Assembly (NCBI GenBank): GCA_023138875.1
Contig: JAGLOO010000011.1
Coordinates: 105,396-169,395, forward strand
DNA from: Bacteroidales bacterium
GTDB taxonomy: Bacteria > Bacteroidota > Bacteroidia > Bacteroidales > GCA-2748055
DNA: 64,000 bases
Direction: 5' to 3'
Part shown: piece after piece, positions 8,545 through 52,657 of the stretch
How the letters are laid out: every line of letters begins with the position of its first letter
Position numbering within the stretch: the stretch's first letter is position 1
Position numbers and translations under genes: made by a program
The notes under the pieces: model-generated
What the model was told of the DNA's origin: nothing
What the model saw: only the letters and a program-made list of their open reading frames with translations
The model's database searches: none

Positions 8545-10413
8545 ATGAATAAATTGATGAAGAGGATTACTAAATATTCATTCTGGTGGATTACCCTGGG
8601 TCTGTCCATCCTTTTTATGACGTCGTGCGAGAAATTCCTGAATCCGGAACAGGAACTCAGGATTGTTGAGGACAATCTTTACAAGGACTGGTATGAATAC
8701 CGGTCCGTTGAGATGGGGATGTATGCGTTACAGCAGAAGCTGGTGGAACAGCTGTTGGTCCTTGGCGAATTGCGTGGAGATCTCCTGGAAATAACACCCA
8801 ATGCTTCGGCTGATATGGTGGAGGTCTATAATTTCAATATTTCAAAAGCCAACGCATTTGCTTCCCCAACCGGATTCTTTAAGTTAATCGCAGCATGTAA
8901 CAATTTCATACGTATCCTGGAGACAGAGAAACCCTATGTGCTGGATCCTGACAGCCCGGTCAACAATTATGACAAGTTATACGGAGAAGTGCTCTGTATG
9001 CGGGCCTGGGCCTATTTTAATGCGGTCAGGATTTATGGTAAGGTCCCCTATATTCATGAATCACTTACGACCATCGGGGAGATTGAGGCCTATCTTGAAT
9101 CGCCCGGGACCTATATTGACAGTGTTCATGTCAACTTCGCCCGGGATGGGTATTATAACGATACGGTTTTCAATGAGCCCATTGAGCTGGAGAAGCAGTA
9201 TTATGATACGGACCTGGTCGTCGACACGTACACCAACCAGCTCAAAAATAGGGTAAAGGCTGTGGGAGTGAATCACTTTATTGAGAACAATGATGACACC
9301 TGGGAGGTGACCATCTGGAATGATTATGCCATGGATGCTCTGATGGGACAGATGTACCTGACACAGGGTGATCTGGTTCAGGCCTCCACACATTTCCTCA
9401 GGATCATGAATAATCCTTCTGACACCTACAGATACCATATCGATAACAGTTTTAGTTATAGTGCTTGGAGGCGTATATTTGCCCTTATCGACAACAGGGA
9501 ACACATCTACACCATTTGGTTTAACAAATCCAATTTTCAGCAGAATGCCTTCCAGAGCTATTTTGAGGATTGGGGTCCCCATCAGTTCAAGCTGAGACCC
9601 ACTTACCAGGCTGTCCTGAAATGGGAATCTGTATTTAGAAACGCAGTAATCAATGAAGATCAGAATAATCCGGACAAATCGGAGGTCATATTTCCCGGGA
9701 TTCCCTCCGATTTTTACCGTGGGTTCGGGTCCTCCTATCTTTACGTAAGAAATAGCGTGAGCATTTCAGGAAATGAGTACATGGATATGCTCATGCTGCG
9801 GAGGGATGGTGATGACCGGAGCTCAAGGGCCATCATGGAAAACATGGATACGGTCGTGATAAAATACTCCGTCGGCAGGAATTCCTTCGGCCAGGATGCT
9901 AACTACACGATCTACAGGGCTGCTGGCATTCATCTTTATATGGCCGAGATCTATACCTACTGGGTCTATATACAGAATGACCTTCCTATCACCAATACCA
10001 ACGCAGCCCTGGGTATTCTGAACGACGGCAGCAATTATACCCTGGATGCCGGAAGACCAGAAATGGGTATACGCGGGCGGGTCGGATTGGGAGGTGGTAA
10101 TGACGTGGTTTCCGTCAGGAACATCAACTACACCCATGATCCGTTTACCAATGAGATCACCGGTTATATCGATCTGACAGGAAATTTCCTGGGCAAACAA
10201 GAGTACCTGGAGGAACTGGTTATGGAGGAAAAGGCAAGGGAACTGGCCTTTGAAGGAGAGCGGTTCTATGACCTGATGCGGGTGGCCAAACGCAGGAATG
10301 ATCCTTCGTACCTTGCAGAAAAGGTAGCCTCAAAATTCCCGGCAGATAAGCGGGACCAGATCTATAACCACCTTCTGGACGAGAACAACTGGTATATTAA
10401 TTATTTTGAATAG
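8545..10413 (+). CDS. RagB/SusD-family nutrient uptake outer membrane lipoprotein
   Basis: Lipoprotein N-terminus (LFMTSCEKFLNPEQ), GEVLCMRAWAYFNAVRIYGKVPYI, EEKARELAFEGERFYDLMRVAKRR; directly follows SusC. Confidence 0.94.
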   Translation: MNKLMKRITKYSFWWITLGLSILFMTSCEKFLNPEQELRIVEDNLYKDWYEYRSVEMGMYALQQKLVEQLLVLGELRGDLLEITPNASADMVEVYNFNISKANAFASPTGFFKLIAACNNFIRILETEKPYVLDPDSPVNNYDKLYGEVLCMRAWAYFNAVRIYGKVPYIHESLTTIGEIEAYLESPGTYIDSVHVNFARDGYYNDTVFNEPIELEKQYYDTDLVVDTYTNQLKNRVKAVGVNHFIENNDDTWEVTIWNDYAMDALMGQMYLTQGDLVQASTHFLRIMNNPSDTYRYHIDNSFSYSAWRRIFALIDNREHIYTIWFNKSNFQQNAFQSYFEDWGPHQFKLRPTYQAVLKWESVFRNAVINEDQNNPDKSEVIFPGIPSDFYRGFGSSYLYVRNSVSISGNEYMDMLMLRRDGDDRSSRAIMENMDTVVIKYSVGRNSFGQDANYTIYRAAGIHLYMAEIYTYWVYIQNDLPITNTNAALGILNDGSNYTLDAGRPEMGIRGRVGLGGGNDVVSVRNINYTHDPFTNEITGYIDLTGNFLGKQEYLEELVMEEKARELAFEGERFYDLMRVAKRRNDPSYLAEKVASKFPADKRDQIYNHLLDENNWYINYFE

Positions 10414-47120: not shown

Positions 47121-47891
47121 ATGTATCCTGTTAGAGAGTGGAACAAGCCATCCTTCGGAATGGCTATTCTTTTATTGATATTCATCATGGTTTTCCTGCT
47201 TCCTTCCTGTAAAAAGGAGGAGGGGCTGGGTGGTACAGGGGCCATCTCAGGGACCATCATTGAACAGTTCTACAATGATGATTATTCCAGCCTGGTTTAT
47301 CAGAAAGCAGCGGTTGACGAAGAGGTTTTTATGATGTTTGGCGAGGATAAGAATCTGGGGGACCGTACATTCACCAGTATTACAGGCAATTTCAGATTTA
47401 ATTATCTCTTCCCGGGGCGATATTATATCTACTACCAGTCCCGGGATTCAACTTCGATCCTGGATGAGATACACGAAAAGCTTTACCTGGTGGATATGGA
47501 CAGGGGAGAGGAGGTGGACCTGGGGAACCTTGTGAAATTGAGTACACTTGATTACAATGATGGTGCGGCGATTATTAAAGGTGTGGTGAAGGTCATCAAA
47601 TATGTGGACGAATCCAGGTGGCCGAACCTGGTAATCGAATACATTGATTTTGCTCATGAGCATGAGGTTTATCTTAAATCGGGCAATCATACATTTTACG
47701 ATGAACGGATAAGAACCCAGCATGACGGATATTTCGAATTCAGCAATTTGATTCCGGGGGATTACCTGGTGTTCCTGTATTCGGATGATGTAACACGGGT
47801 AATCAAAAATGTAGTCCTGAAATTTGAAGTCACTATTTCGGAGTTTGACCAGGTGGTTGACCTTGGAGAGATAACCATTGAAAACCTATAA
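47121..47891 (+). CDS. Putative lipoprotein of unknown function with carboxypeptidase-regulatory-like repeats
   Basis: Lipobox-like FLLPSCKKEEG; FRFNYLFPGRYYIYYQSRD and YFEFSNLIPGDYLVFLYSDD resemble CarboxypepD_reg/SpaA-type folds. Confidence 0.75.
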   Translation: MYPVREWNKPSFGMAILLLIFIMVFLLPSCKKEEGLGGTGAISGTIIEQFYNDDYSSLVYQKAAVDEEVFMMFGEDKNLGDRTFTSITGNFRFNYLFPGRYYIYYQSRDSTSILDEIHEKLYLVDMDRGEEVDLGNLVKLSTLDYNDGAAIIKGVVKVIKYVDESRWPNLVIEYIDFAHEHEVYLKSGNHTFYDERIRTQHDGYFEFSNLIPGDYLVFLYSDDVTRVIKNVVLKFEVTISEFDQVVDLGEITIENL

Positions 47892-47905
47892 GAATCACAG
47901 AAAAT

Positions 47906-48325
47906 ATGTTTGACAGGAAGATATTCACGCTAATGGTCCTTTTATTGTCCGTGGTAGTAGCAGGTTACGGTCAGAGTAAAAAGAACATTAGAGAGAAGGG
48001 AATTGTTTCGAAAACAGTCCATGAATATTTCATAGAGGAAGGGATGGATGAACCGGTTGTTGAATCAATAGAGCGATTCAATGAGGAAGGTGATGTGATC
48101 GAAATTCAGGAATTCAACAGGAAGGGAGAGGTCAGAAAGTGGGAAAAGTATATGTATAATGATGATGGAAAACTGGTGGAAGAGGTATTCCTTGATGCAA
48201 AGGGCAGGATCGACAGGACAGAAAAGAGTATTTATGAAGATAACCTGCGGGTAGAGAAACAATATTACAACAACAGGGGAAAACTCTACAAGAAGAAGAA
48301 ATACCTGTATGAGTATAGCCAGTAG
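47906..48325 (+). CDS. Small secreted protein of unknown function (MORN-like/YD-like repeats)
   Basis: Signal peptide; repeats EEGDVIEIQEFNRKGEVRKWEKYMYNDDGKLVEEVFLDAKGRIDRTEKSIYEDN. Confidence 0.75.
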   Translation: MFDRKIFTLMVLLLSVVVAGYGQSKKNIREKGIVSKTVHEYFIEEGMDEPVVESIERFNEEGDVIEIQEFNRKGEVRKWEKYMYNDDGKLVEEVFLDAKGRIDRTEKSIYEDNLRVEKQYYNNRGKLYKKKKYLYEYSQ

Positions 48326-49097
48326 CATAAATAGCAGCCTGTCAGGTTTCAAAAGCATCACCCTGGAAGAGGTGCAGCGGGCAAGTCTGATGAGGAGAAA
48401 AGACAGTAAGTATATATATAGTTATATCCATGTTCCCGGTATCCTGTCGTCGCTGAAAAAGGAGTACAGGGTACTGGAGATTGATGGCCGGCGTTCGCAC
48501 AATTATCAGACCTATTATTATGATACCCTGGGCCTTGATATGTACCATATGCACCACAGAGGCAGGGTAAACCGGCATAAAATCAGGTTCAGGAAATATA
48601 AATCCACCGATGCGGTTTTCCTGGAAGTAAAGAAAAAAGATGCCAAGGGGGTTACCATTAAGAACCGCATGCAGACGATGAGTAATGTAGCGTCCATAAT
48701 GAGTAAAGAAGAGGAGTTTCTTGCTTACTATACTCCCTACGAAAATGAAAAAATGCGGCCTGTACTGGAAAACAGCTTCAACAGGATCACCCTGGTTAAC
48801 CAGAACCAGGCCGAAAGGATCACCATCGATTACCAACTCTGGTTTTCCAGTCAGGTTTCAGAGGAAAGCCTGGAATTGCCTGGAATTTCAATAGCAGAGA
48901 TTAAATTCGAGAACCATCTTTCCGGTTCCCCGTTTCATGCAGCAATGCGTCAAAATCACATCATCCCCCGGCGATTCAGCAAGTATTGCATTGGGATGGC
49001 TATGCTCAACCCGGAATTGAAGCAAAACCTGTTTAAAGAGAAGGTCCGCCGGGTATATCAAATAAATAACCACTATTTGCAATCCATAAAAAACTAA
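48309..49097 (+). CDS. VTC-domain (polyphosphate polymerase-like) protein
   Basis: LMRRKDSKYIYSY, YQTYYYDTLGLDMYHMHHRGRVNRHKIRFRKYKSTDAVFLEVKKKDAKGVTIKNRM, RPVLENSFNRITLV, ISIAEIKFEN: basic tunnel-type motifs of the VTC/CYTH-like superfamily. Starts inside the preceding gene. Confidence 0.85.
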   Translation: MSIASSINSSLSGFKSITLEEVQRASLMRRKDSKYIYSYIHVPGILSSLKKEYRVLEIDGRRSHNYQTYYYDTLGLDMYHMHHRGRVNRHKIRFRKYKSTDAVFLEVKKKDAKGVTIKNRMQTMSNVASIMSKEEEFLAYYTPYENEKMRPVLENSFNRITLVNQNQAERITIDYQLWFSSQVSEESLELPGISIAEIKFENHLSGSPFHAAMRQNHIIPRRFSKYCIGMAMLNPELKQNLFKEKVRRVYQINNHYLQSIKN

Positions 49098-49101
49098 TGC
49101 C

Positions 49102-49770
49102 ATGCCGGAATTTCTGAATATTGAGTTGATGAACTGGGAAGATTTTCTCGACCTGGTTATCAGGACGGTCTTTAATCTATTGGTGGTCTTAATCATGGTA
49201 CGGTACCTTTATTACAAAACAACTCCCCGGAAGGACTACCTGTTTACCTATATATTGATCAGTCTGGTGGTTTTCTTTATGGTCTTTCTCCTGGAGAACA
49301 TCAAGATCGAACTTGGATTTGCCCTGGGACTTTTCGCAATCTTTGGCATCATCCGGTACCGGACAAGGCAGATCCCCATCCGGGAGATGACGTATTTGTT
49401 CCTGGTGATCGGGATCTCTGTAATCAATGCGCTGTCAAACAGGAAAGTAAGTTATGCAGAGTTACTTCTCACCAATGCAGTGTTATTATTTGTCACCTAC
49501 CTTCTGGAGAAGGTATTCCTGCTGAAGCACGAAACGAAGAAAGTGATCAATTATGAAAACGTTGATTTGATAAAGCCCGACAGAAGAGCAGAGTTAACAC
49601 GGGATCTTGAAGAACGCACGGGGCTTACTATCAATAGGTTAGATATAGGACGAATCGATTACCTGAGGGATTCTGCCAGGATCATTATTTATTACTTCGA
49701 GGATGATAACTGGTTGAATGATGGTGATGATGTCCTGCAAATGCCAGGGAATGACAACGATGACGATTAG
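49102..49770 (+). CDS. DUF4956-family membrane protein
   Basis: Multi-TM N-terminal half, LGFALGLFAIFGIIRYRTRQIPIREMTYLFLVIGISVINAL, cytosolic C-terminal domain. Confidence 0.88.
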   Translation: MPEFLNIELMNWEDFLDLVIRTVFNLLVVLIMVRYLYYKTTPRKDYLFTYILISLVVFFMVFLLENIKIELGFALGLFAIFGIIRYRTRQIPIREMTYLFLVIGISVINALSNRKVSYAELLLTNAVLLFVTYLLEKVFLLKHETKKVINYENVDLIKPDRRAELTRDLEERTGLTINRLDIGRIDYLRDSARIIIYYFEDDNWLNDGDDVLQMPGNDNDDD

Positions 49771-50440
49771 AAGATATTCCCTGTTTTTATCCATCCTTAT
49801 TCTGTTTACAACCGGAGAGTTGATCGGACAGCGGAAAGATTTTAGTTCATGGTACGAGTTTGAAATTGATAAAGGATTGAACAACGGAGTTGATCTTTCT
49901 TTAGAAGTCGAACAGCGATTTAAAAACAACAGTCTGAAATATGACCGCACTCAACTCACGTTGGCGGGCGAATACGATATAACCGATTATTTCAGTACTG
50001 CTGTCGGTTTTAGGGCATTGCTCACCACCAACCGGGAATTGCAGTTACAGAGAAGGTACAGGATGCATGTGGATGCAACAGGGAGTCACTCTATATCCGG
50101 ATTTGATCTCTCACTGCGACTGAGATTGCAGTATGGTTTTGATGACCAGGTTTTCGTTGGATATTTCAGAGACAACAACCTGGTGAACCGGAACAGGTTA
50201 AAGATTGAACACCATCTATTCGGATCCAGACTGGGATTTTTCGCAACCATAGAAAGCTGGCATATGTTCATCGGTGATCCCGGCCGTCTGTTTTACAAGA
50301 TGCGGTATTCAGCAGGGGCGCAGTATACCTTGAATTTCCGGTCCGAGTTCAGTCTCAGGTATATCCTGGAGGATGAATTCAATGTGGTTAATCCACTTCA
50401 GTCCCACATCCTTGTATTAGGCTATTCTCACAGTCTTTAA
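49751..50440 (+). CDS. DUF2490-family outer-membrane beta-barrel-like protein
   Basis: Signal-peptide-like N-terminus (SLFLSILILFTTGELIGQ), WYEFEIDKGLNNGVDLSLEVEQRFKNN...YDRTQLTLAGEYDITDYFSTAVGFRAL beta-strand pattern; overlaps the DUF4956 gene by 20 bp. Confidence 0.82.
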   Translation: MTTMTIRRYSLFLSILILFTTGELIGQRKDFSSWYEFEIDKGLNNGVDLSLEVEQRFKNNSLKYDRTQLTLAGEYDITDYFSTAVGFRALLTTNRELQLQRRYRMHVDATGSHSISGFDLSLRLRLQYGFDDQVFVGYFRDNNLVNRNRLKIEHHLFGSRLGFFATIESWHMFIGDPGRLFYKMRYSAGAQYTLNFRSEFSLRYILEDEFNVVNPLQSHILVLGYSHSL

Positions 50441-50446
50441 CAGGAG

Positions 50447-52657
50447 CTATTGCTTGATCAATTTACACACCTCCCTTATTTTCAGCCCATCGGAAATCTC
50501 AAGGGTGTACATTCCATCGGGCAGATAAGACAGGTTTGGAAGTTCAAAGCTGAATTCATATTCTGTTAATCCAATGTTTGACTGGAACACCATTCTCCCG
50601 TTCATGTCATACAAACAGATGCGTACCTTTGAGGAGGAGCTGTGGGGCAGGGAGACAAAGGTGCGGGACAGGTCTGAAGGGTTTGGATACACCCTCACTG
50701 TTTCCGGTTTCGGTATCACCAGGTCCCGGGCTAAACTTACCGGGATGCATAAGCCTCCCCATTTATCATCCATCCAACCAAGACGGTCATTGATCCAGGA
50801 TCGGAGATACAACATTTCTGCGCCATAGCTGTGAGCCACATAACTGTTGGGCCAGACATACATCCCAAAAATCGGCCATCGCCGAAAGTTCCTCCCAATG
50901 GCATCATCGAGTTCCGTCAGGAAGCTATCTATCAGTGTGGAGACTTCCAGGGGATCAAGAACGGTACCAGACAGTTCATCCCACCGGCAATACAGCTGGT
51001 TTCGGAACCATGGGTCCTGCATTGCCCTTGCCCACCAGTAGATGGTATTGGAAAGGGTGTAAGTCCAGTTTTTGGTGAGGTGGACATCCTCGGTATAGTC
51101 ATTGTTCCCGTAGGTGAGGTTGTAGTCCCACGGCGGACCGTTTACCAGTTTGCCTCCATTGGTATCTTTTTGCTTGTAGAAGTAGTGACTGAGCCTGAAT
51201 CCGTCCACATCCTTGGCAAATTCATTGAGTATCATCAGGTCAATGAATGATGGGATATCCAGGTAAGAGCGGTAGCCACTCACTGGGTCTTTAAAGTTCG
51301 GGGAGACCAGCGCCTGTTCAAATTTCAGAAGGTGTCCCCTGATGTAATTTCTCTGATCAACAGTGAGTTCATCGTATTCAGGATCGAAATACTGATAGGT
51401 GATGCGCCCATAACCTGATATGGGCGGCTGTACAGGCGATTCCCAGTAATGGATGGGATCCATTCCAGAGGTTTTGTCGACCCGCATCAAATACCCCCCC
51501 GATATATCAACAGCCGTTGTGTCCTTCGGGGTGAGTTTTGCCATATCCACCCGGTTCTTATCCCGCTTGATCTTTTCCGTGAGCACGTAGAGCCCTTTGT
51601 AACCATCGTTGATCACCAGTTCTATAAGCCTGGTCCGTGGTGCGTAGTGACCAAATTTTTCAAAGAGGCGGTAGGTGATGACATTCCTGATGAGGCTCTT
51701 ATCTCCGTAGGGACCGTACAGTACAAAGTCGTTTTCCTCTGGCAGGTCCAGCAGGGAAACATTGTTGTTGGTACCGCTGTCGGTCTGGGTCTCGATGCTA
51801 AAGGATTTCTTGGGGTATAGCCATAGTGACGACTCACCTCTCAGTTCGATGGATATCTGTCCGTCGTATTCGTTAAAAGGATCCTCTATTGAATTATACC
51901 TTCCATAGTCTTTGTAAATCAATCCCATCCGGGCCGTGATCCGGGGTTCATTTGGAATTACCTGCCCGTCAGTATCTATCACCATCAGAGGGAGGAGGGT
52001 GCTGTCTTCATGGAAAGGGAGATAAAACCATGAGGGCGTTTCATGGAAATAGTGATCTTCCGTGTGAATCCCTGCATGCAGAAAAATATTGCTGGAAAGA
52101 TCGGAAGAGCCTTCGGATATGTTGTGAACCTCTATGGCCAGCACATTATCGCCTGCAACCAGTTCCTCCTGTATGATCTCATTAATCCCAATCCTTAACG
52201 GATCCATTCCCTGGTATAGGCTGGCCTCATGGTGACCTTCGGCCGACTGATACCACAGGGTTGTGCTGCCCTTCGCTCGCATATTGTACCTGCCCAGTTC
52301 AGTACCATTCAGGTAAGCCACGAAGCCATCGTCAAAATCCACATCCAGGATAAGTTCGGCGATCACTCCGGGATCGGTTATCTCAAAATGGTACCTGCAA
52401 TATACTGAGATGGCCGGGTCAATGATTGTAAGATCATCACCATCACCATACCCCACACCCCCCTGTCCGCTGTCCCAGGTTGAGTCATCATACCCCCTGT
52501 TGATCCATGCAGGGTCCACCGGGGCGCCCGGGATAAGGTAGCGGCAAGTACTACCCACCCTCACAATGGATTCCCAGTGATCGATATCTCCTCCCATCAA
52601 CTGGAGAGGAAGAACAGAAAGCATTAGAACCGTCACATATTTCAGAACTGTTCTCAT
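50447..52657 (-). CDS. CotH kinase-family secreted protein with T9SS C-terminal sorting domain
   Basis: CotH motifs: GQISIELRGESSLWLYPKKSFSIETQ, FVLYGPYGDKSLIRNVITYRLFEKFGHYAPRTR, GLYVLTEKIKRDKNRVDMAKL, GGYLMRVDKT, GPPWDYNLTYGN; C-terminal VRVYPNPSDLS...VCKLIKQ. Confidence 0.9.
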   Translation of the reverse strand: MRTVLKYVTVLMLSVLPLQLMGGDIDHWESIVRVGSTCRYLIPGAPVDPAWINRGYDDSTWDSGQGGVGYGDGDDLTIIDPAISVYCRYHFEITDPGVIAELILDVDFDDGFVAYLNGTELGRYNMRAKGSTTLWYQSAEGHHEASLYQGMDPLRIGINEIIQEELVAGDNVLAIEVHNISEGSSDLSSNIFLHAGIHTEDHYFHETPSWFYLPFHEDSTLLPLMVIDTDGQVIPNEPRITARMGLIYKDYGRYNSIEDPFNEYDGQISIELRGESSLWLYPKKSFSIETQTDSGTNNNVSLLDLPEENDFVLYGPYGDKSLIRNVITYRLFEKFGHYAPRTRLIELVINDGYKGLYVLTEKIKRDKNRVDMAKLTPKDTTAVDISGGYLMRVDKTSGMDPIHYWESPVQPPISGYGRITYQYFDPEYDELTVDQRNYIRGHLLKFEQALVSPNFKDPVSGYRSYLDIPSFIDLMILNEFAKDVDGFRLSHYFYKQKDTNGGKLVNGPPWDYNLTYGNNDYTEDVHLTKNWTYTLSNTIYWWARAMQDPWFRNQLYCRWDELSGTVLDPLEVSTLIDSFLTELDDAIGRNFRRWPIFGMYVWPNSYVAHSYGAEMLYLRSWINDRLGWMDDKWGGLCIPVSLARDLVIPKPETVRVYPNPSDLSRTFVSLPHSSSSKVRICLYDMNGRMVFQSNIGLTEYEFSFELPNLSYLPDGMYTLEISDGLKIREVCKLIKQ

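Follow-up and report, generated by a model that had tools for sequence, protein, structure and literature searches.

A VTC-DUF4956 gene pair with envelope and CotH partners in Bacteroidota: a candidate system for a surface phosphate polymer

Introduction

What might a polyphosphate-polymerase-like protein, a membrane protein, a putative outer-membrane barrel and a secreted kinase-like protein have to do with each other? The question is raised by a cassette in a Bacteroidales genome (assembly GCA_023138875.1), within a stretch of 64,000 nucleotides of contig JAGLOO010000011.1 (positions 105,396 to 169,395, forward strand; hereafter the window), in which genes for a VTC-domain protein, a DUF4956 protein and a DUF2490 protein lie beside a gene of the CotH family. 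The polyphosphate of bacteria is commonly attributed to PPK enzymes; the cassette makes two questions testable in genetically tractable Bacteroidota, namely the origin of bacterial polyphosphate and the phosphate supply of secreted kinases. An earlier note on this DNA had proposed an uncharacterised surface system for phosphate handling or phosphotransfer, and our analysis partly supports that interpretation: VTC and DUF4956 form a near-obligatory core, the VTC protein resembles yeast Vtc4 in predicted fold and in tunnel residues, and CotH is an optional part.

Results

A Vtc4-type tunnel protein and its membrane partner

Judged by its modelled fold and its aligned tunnel residues, the VTC protein is a Vtc4-type triphosphate tunnel (TTM) protein. 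Its profile matches yeast Vtc4 (3.8e-18), and Vtc4 is also the top Foldseek fold match (1.3e-13) of its AlphaFold model (predicted local distance difference test, pLDDT, 95); TTM hydrolases and cyclases trail by about five orders of magnitude, the best TTM hydrolase being ygiF (1.5e-8). Residues K34, R93, R95, E106, K108, R159, E197 and K225 are conserved in 48/48 close relatives and R170 in 47/48; the positions aligned to Vtc4 K200, R264, R266, K281, R361, E426 and K458 are kept in 47-48 of the 48, and the tunnel residues are nearly fully conserved across 26 diverse relatives too. R222, aligned to Vtc4 K455, is variable. TTM hydrolases are marked by an acidic patch of four positions (PMC4641920). 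At these, located here by sequence alignment rather than by superposition, the protein carries the basic residues R30, K118 and K199 and the acidic residue D32. Pfam detects the VTC domain only, and no SPX domain, in its 262 residues. We infer an activity as an ATP-dependent polyphosphate polymerase, and with it the cargo and the phosphate donor.

The DUF4956 model (pLDDT 86.6) consists of five helices followed by a C-terminal ACT-like domain, which has weak structural matches to ACT and aspartate kinase regulatory domains; structure comparison of the membrane part matched no solved protein or channel. Two arginines that close helix 3, R85 and R87, do not vary among 26 diverse members and might contact the polyphosphate chain; in the yeast VTC channel, basic residues of the first transmembrane helix (TM1) affect polyphosphate synthesis (PMC9911596). 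A link to MgtC (PF02308) is weak: there is no Pfam match, and hhalign gave 79% with a diverse profile and nothing with a narrow one.

The genome has a second DUF4956 gene, which lacks a VTC neighbour (G000:C56:66250-66771; 8691-9314 of locus L032). Adjoining it (L032 9327-10388) is a gene for a secreted protein of about 350 residues from a divergent CotH-like family, c8, and the same arrangement is seen at loci L059, L097, L098 and L176. One member of this family (L097 10529-11611) exceeds the Pfam cut-off for CotH; others match nothing.

Conservation of the core and variation of its partners

We sampled 248 genomes of the phylum; the P values given for them take no account of how closely these genomes are related. 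VTC occurs in 43 of them, DUF4956 in 68 and CotH in 96; none of the 43 VTC genomes lacks DUF4956 (hypergeometric P 8e-31), and all but one, 42 in number, also have CotH (P 1.5e-19). DUF4956 follows VTC within 1 kb downstream on the same strand at 45/47 loci. CotH lies within 10 kb of VTC at at least 13/47 loci, where 0.9 would be expected (about 14-fold, P 4e-12), and its strand is that of VTC in all 13; the convergent CotH of the window itself is not among the matches listed in this distance count. The gene neighbourhood of VTC, DUF4956 and CotH to which the earlier note had pointed exists, far above chance. Of the 14 named control genomes, three match VTC, and DUF4956 matches these same genomes; an archaeon is among them.

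A second collection, drawn from relatives and from 80 named contigs, kept 94 loci once redundancy had been removed, each flanked by 3.5 kb or more; the contig loci were picked by DUF4956 similarity, the broad VTC alignment having no sufficiently conserved stretch. Here VTC stands directly upstream of DUF4956 on the same strand at 81/94 loci. Among 104 VTC-DUF4956 pairs, with each start placed so as to give the longest frame, the gap is at most 60 bp in 103, and 66 overlap. The comparison revealed no fusion between cassette families, and a long VTC frame at L078, considered as a candidate fusion, was rejected as a high-GC open frame. DUF2490 is nearby at 46 loci and an HlyD-like adaptor at 17, and because both occur together at a single locus, the two look like alternatives. 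CotH is nearby at 29/94 loci, i.e., at 27 of the 62 loci with an envelope part vs 2 of the 32 without (Fisher p 1.3e-4). VTC-DUF4956 is therefore a near-obligatory core, to which CotH is an optional addition; the view of CotH as a cassette member stands as far as linkage is concerned, and falls short in that most loci do without it.

In the genus to which the window belongs, CotH converges on DUF2490 at a distance of 2-11 bp, and elsewhere it is mostly co-directional, overlapping or abutting cassette genes in several families; only the convergent orientation looks particular to the closest relatives. That CotH sits beside the operon was correct, but because it is convergent it is not part of the cassette transcript in this genome.

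A secreted kinase-like protein

The CotH-family protein scores 167 bits against PF08757, for which the Pfam cut-off is 23.8. As the earlier note had read from the sequence, it carries a signal peptide and a sorting tail of the type IX secretion system (T9SS; TIGR04183, 7.7e-11; Por_Secre_tail in Pfam, 1.6e-7). With such a C-terminal domain, and with the T9SS protein SprA encoded in the genome, the protein is predicted to be a T9SS cargo. D485 and D511 correspond in the alignment to B. subtilis D228 and its partner and are invariant in 32/32 sequences, the divergent c8 family included; the B. subtilis D228Q variant is inactive. The residue that follows the catalytic aspartate in the motif is Asn in 24/32, and is replaced by Ser490 in the window CotH and its subfamily.

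Several further CotH genes lie elsewhere in the genome, far from the cassette. Two of them (G000:C78:1250-1851 and G000:C20:66823-67610) give split matches, one with an internal TAA, and may be broken or frameshifted.

Gene layout and neighbours

The coordinates (Table 1) confirm five tightly packed plus-strand genes that end close to CotH. The VTC start lies 17 bp within the preceding small-protein gene, DUF2490 read from ATG 49751 overlaps DUF4956 by 20 bp (an in-frame ATG is also present at 49718), and 6 bp separate DUF2490 from the end of CotH. The VTC and CotH assignments hold, the tunnel and active-site residues are retained and the gene order is conserved across the phylum, so that the findings that the earlier note had named as fatal to its proposal did not materialise. 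Promoter matches were at the level of shuffled sequence and terminator matches only slightly above it; neither was used.

Table 1. Genes of the cassette and the adjoining CotH gene (positions in the window)
Feature	Position	Strand	Support
Lipoprotein, 256 aa; first cassette gene	47121-47891	+	lipobox LPSC in sequence
Small secreted short-repeat protein, 139 aa	47906-48325	+	signal peptide in sequence
VTC-domain protein, 262 aa	48309-49097	+	PF09359 1.3e-28
DUF4956 inner-membrane protein, 222 aa	49102-49770	+	PF16316 1.2e-53
DUF2490 putative outer-membrane beta-barrel, 229 aa, signal peptide	49751-50440	+	PF10677 2.3e-15
Secreted CotH-family kinase, 736 aa, signal peptide and T9SS sorting tail	50447-52657	-	PF08757 8.1e-49

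The lipoprotein has weak prealbumin/SdrD_B-like similarity (in Pfam, SdrD_B 1.4e-6, just under the cut-off, and SpaA 7.9e-5, just over it), and homologues occupy the equivalent position in many loci. The small secreted protein belongs to no family, with no Pfam match over the cut-off, and has counterparts at the equivalent position in relatives.

Recurring neighbours of the loci, as far as identified, are T9SS genes, arylsulfotransferases, response regulators and housekeeping genes; a recurring glycan-synthesis cluster was not found among them. VTC-DUF4956 stands beside T9SS genes (among them PorU sortase, PorV, GldJ and a PorP-family gene) at L091, L132, L136, L140, L141, L142, L164 and L166, mostly in Flavobacteriales, which may be the chance result of a stable chromosomal neighbourhood. 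One of these contigs, L132 (PBNL01000005.1), is titled Euryarchaeota archaeon SP189 and looks like mislabelled or misbinned Bacteroidota DNA, because it carries PorU, PorP-family and GldJ-like genes. Arylsulfotransferase-like genes occur near the cassette, often near CotH, at L058, L060, L073, L081, L095, L119, L121, L150, L173 and L183; both members that were scanned proved to be arylsulfotransferases and to carry a T9SS tail. The profile of this family (c15) drifted to other proteins on iteration (93 matches) and was excluded from the counts.

Discussion

How might the parts work together? The most likely scenario, which we hold tentatively and with somewhat less than even confidence, has polyphosphate made by the VTC protein, led across the inner membrane by DUF4956 and brought outward by DUF2490 or the adaptor, with CotH phosphorylating targets on the surface. 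The cytosolic VTC protein would polymerise polyphosphate from ATP and feed the growing chain through DUF4956 into the periplasm, much as yeast Vtc4 delivers its product to the Vtc1/3/4 channel; in yeast, synthesis of polyphosphate and its translocation across the membrane are coupled (PMC9911596), and, by analogy, the cassette would follow the same logic. The DUF2490 barrel, listed as a putative porin family (TC 1.B.81; PMC4827864), or the HlyD-like periplasmic adaptor of other lineages, would then carry or position the polymer outward, and the T9SS-secreted CotH would phosphorylate surface proteins. The alternation of DUF2490 with HlyD-like adaptors points to an envelope step in what the cassette does. 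The genome also has PPK1 for ordinary polyphosphate, and envelope parts recur at the loci, so storage accounts for the anatomy less well than does a phosphate polymer that is made and sent outward. Conceivably, the exported polymer, or a nucleotide supplied with it, might serve CotH as a phosphate source where cytosolic ATP is absent; this is the least certain step of the scheme. Phosphotransfer between the modules, as the earlier note had it, is likewise something that we infer. That all this amounts to a general bacterial machine, in which polyphosphate is made at the inner membrane, exported and used to feed extracellular phosphorylation by T9SS-secreted CotH kinases, seems to us doubtful.

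Several points weigh against polyphosphate export as the function. Polyphosphate as a donor for CotH is without precedent, CotH being known to use ATP. No similarity of DUF4956 to Vtc1 or to any solved channel could be detected, D32 is acidic at one position of the hydrolase patch, and about a quarter of the loci (23/94) have VTC-DUF4956 with neither a detected envelope part nor CotH. In the open papers searched we found no bacterial VTC protein that had been assayed as an enzyme. The main published fact that does not fit in a simple way comes from S. intermedius, in which deletion of the VTC gene had no reported effect, deletion of the DUF4956 gene raised Pel and deletion of the CotH gene lowered it (PMC12345266).

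The DUF4956 and CotH deletions, which alter the amount of Pel without abolishing it (PMC12345266), would sit well with an alternative in which the VTC-DUF4956 pair is a membrane module for regulation or nucleotide sensing: it would tune processes of the envelope or of exopolysaccharide, CotH would be its effector kinase, and no polymer would be exported. The ACT-like domain of DUF4956, with its weak matches to aspartate kinase regulatory domains, and the weak profile link to MgtC point in the same direction. However, conservation of the tunnel residues at close to 100% goes beyond the needs of a sensor, the MgtC link vanishes with the narrower profile, and the recurring outer-membrane barrel or adaptor would be left unexplained; we consider such a module unlikely, although it is the alternative that deserves most attention. 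A module acting on exopolysaccharide, as in Gram-positive Pel loci, might instead serve another surface glycan in Bacteroidota. This idea draws on two published settings of the trio: streptococci, clostridia and bifidobacteria carry it in their Pel loci (PMC7112168), and C. perfringens has it in a locus that also encodes a glycosyltransferase (PMC2879425). Yet PelG does not exceed the cut-off in this genome and the identified neighbours include no recurring glycan-synthesis cluster, which makes the idea improbable.

Alternatively, VTC-DUF4956 may make or export polyphosphate and CotH may be an unrelated neighbour, its convergent position in the genus being incidental. The convergent arrangement here and in close relatives, the absence of CotH near most VTC loci and the several distant CotH genes of the same genome would all be expected of a bystander. 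Proximity at about 14 times the chance level, with a common strand in every case of the phylum sample, would not, nor would the co-directional CotH genes that overlap or abut the cassette in several families, nor the recurrence of the same trio in Gram-positive Pel loci (PMC7112168). Mere coincidence of position is thus hardly probable.

Relation to known systems

The cassette shares with the yeast VTC complex (Vtc4 polymerase and Vtc1/Vtc3 channel) the TTM fold, the Vtc4 tunnel residues and the pairing of a cytosolic polymerase-like domain with a membrane protein. Unlike the yeast complex, it has no SPX domain, its DUF4956 protein is not detectably related to Vtc1, its parts are separate genes with envelope and kinase partners, and its polymerase activity is putative. 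The window CotH has the domain and both catalytic aspartates of the Bacillus CotH kinase (PMC7821199), but it is predicted to be secreted by T9SS rather than placed in a spore coat, and Ser490 replaces the usual Asn. The adjacency of DUF4956 and DUF2490 genes recurs in Bacteroides thetaiotaomicron BT3498-BT3499, a pair that is listed in an iron-stimulon table (-7.6, p 0.175; PMC10434189).

Another published relative is the accessory set of Gram-positive Pel operons, which comprises cotH, PPP, DUF4956 and DUF4832 (PMC7112168, PMC12345266). VTC (there called PPP), DUF4956 and CotH occur together in it, and deletion phenotypes exist for two of the three genes, so the trio, part of what the earlier note had called an uncharacterised system, has been described before. 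The cassette differs in lacking a Pel cluster (it is not contiguous with pel genes) and in adding DUF2490, the lipoprotein and the small secreted protein. C. perfringens NELoc-2 similarly combines VTC-domain genes, adjacent membrane-protein genes and CotH in one locus, in a Gram-positive, glycosyltransferase-containing setting; its membrane genes were labelled tubulin/FtsZ GTPase by the authors (PMC2879425), and our guess is that they encode DUF4956. Synteny of the trio has been stated not to be found outside the Pel locus (PMC12345266). The Bacteroidota loci without Pel contradict this statement, and the trio, not being confined to Pel loci, probably serves a more basic function than the regulation of Pel. 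Compared with the open papers searched, what is new here is the Pel-free setting across Bacteroidota, the alternation of DUF2490 with HlyD-like adaptors together with the link to CotH, and the residue evidence that argues for a Vtc4-type enzyme.

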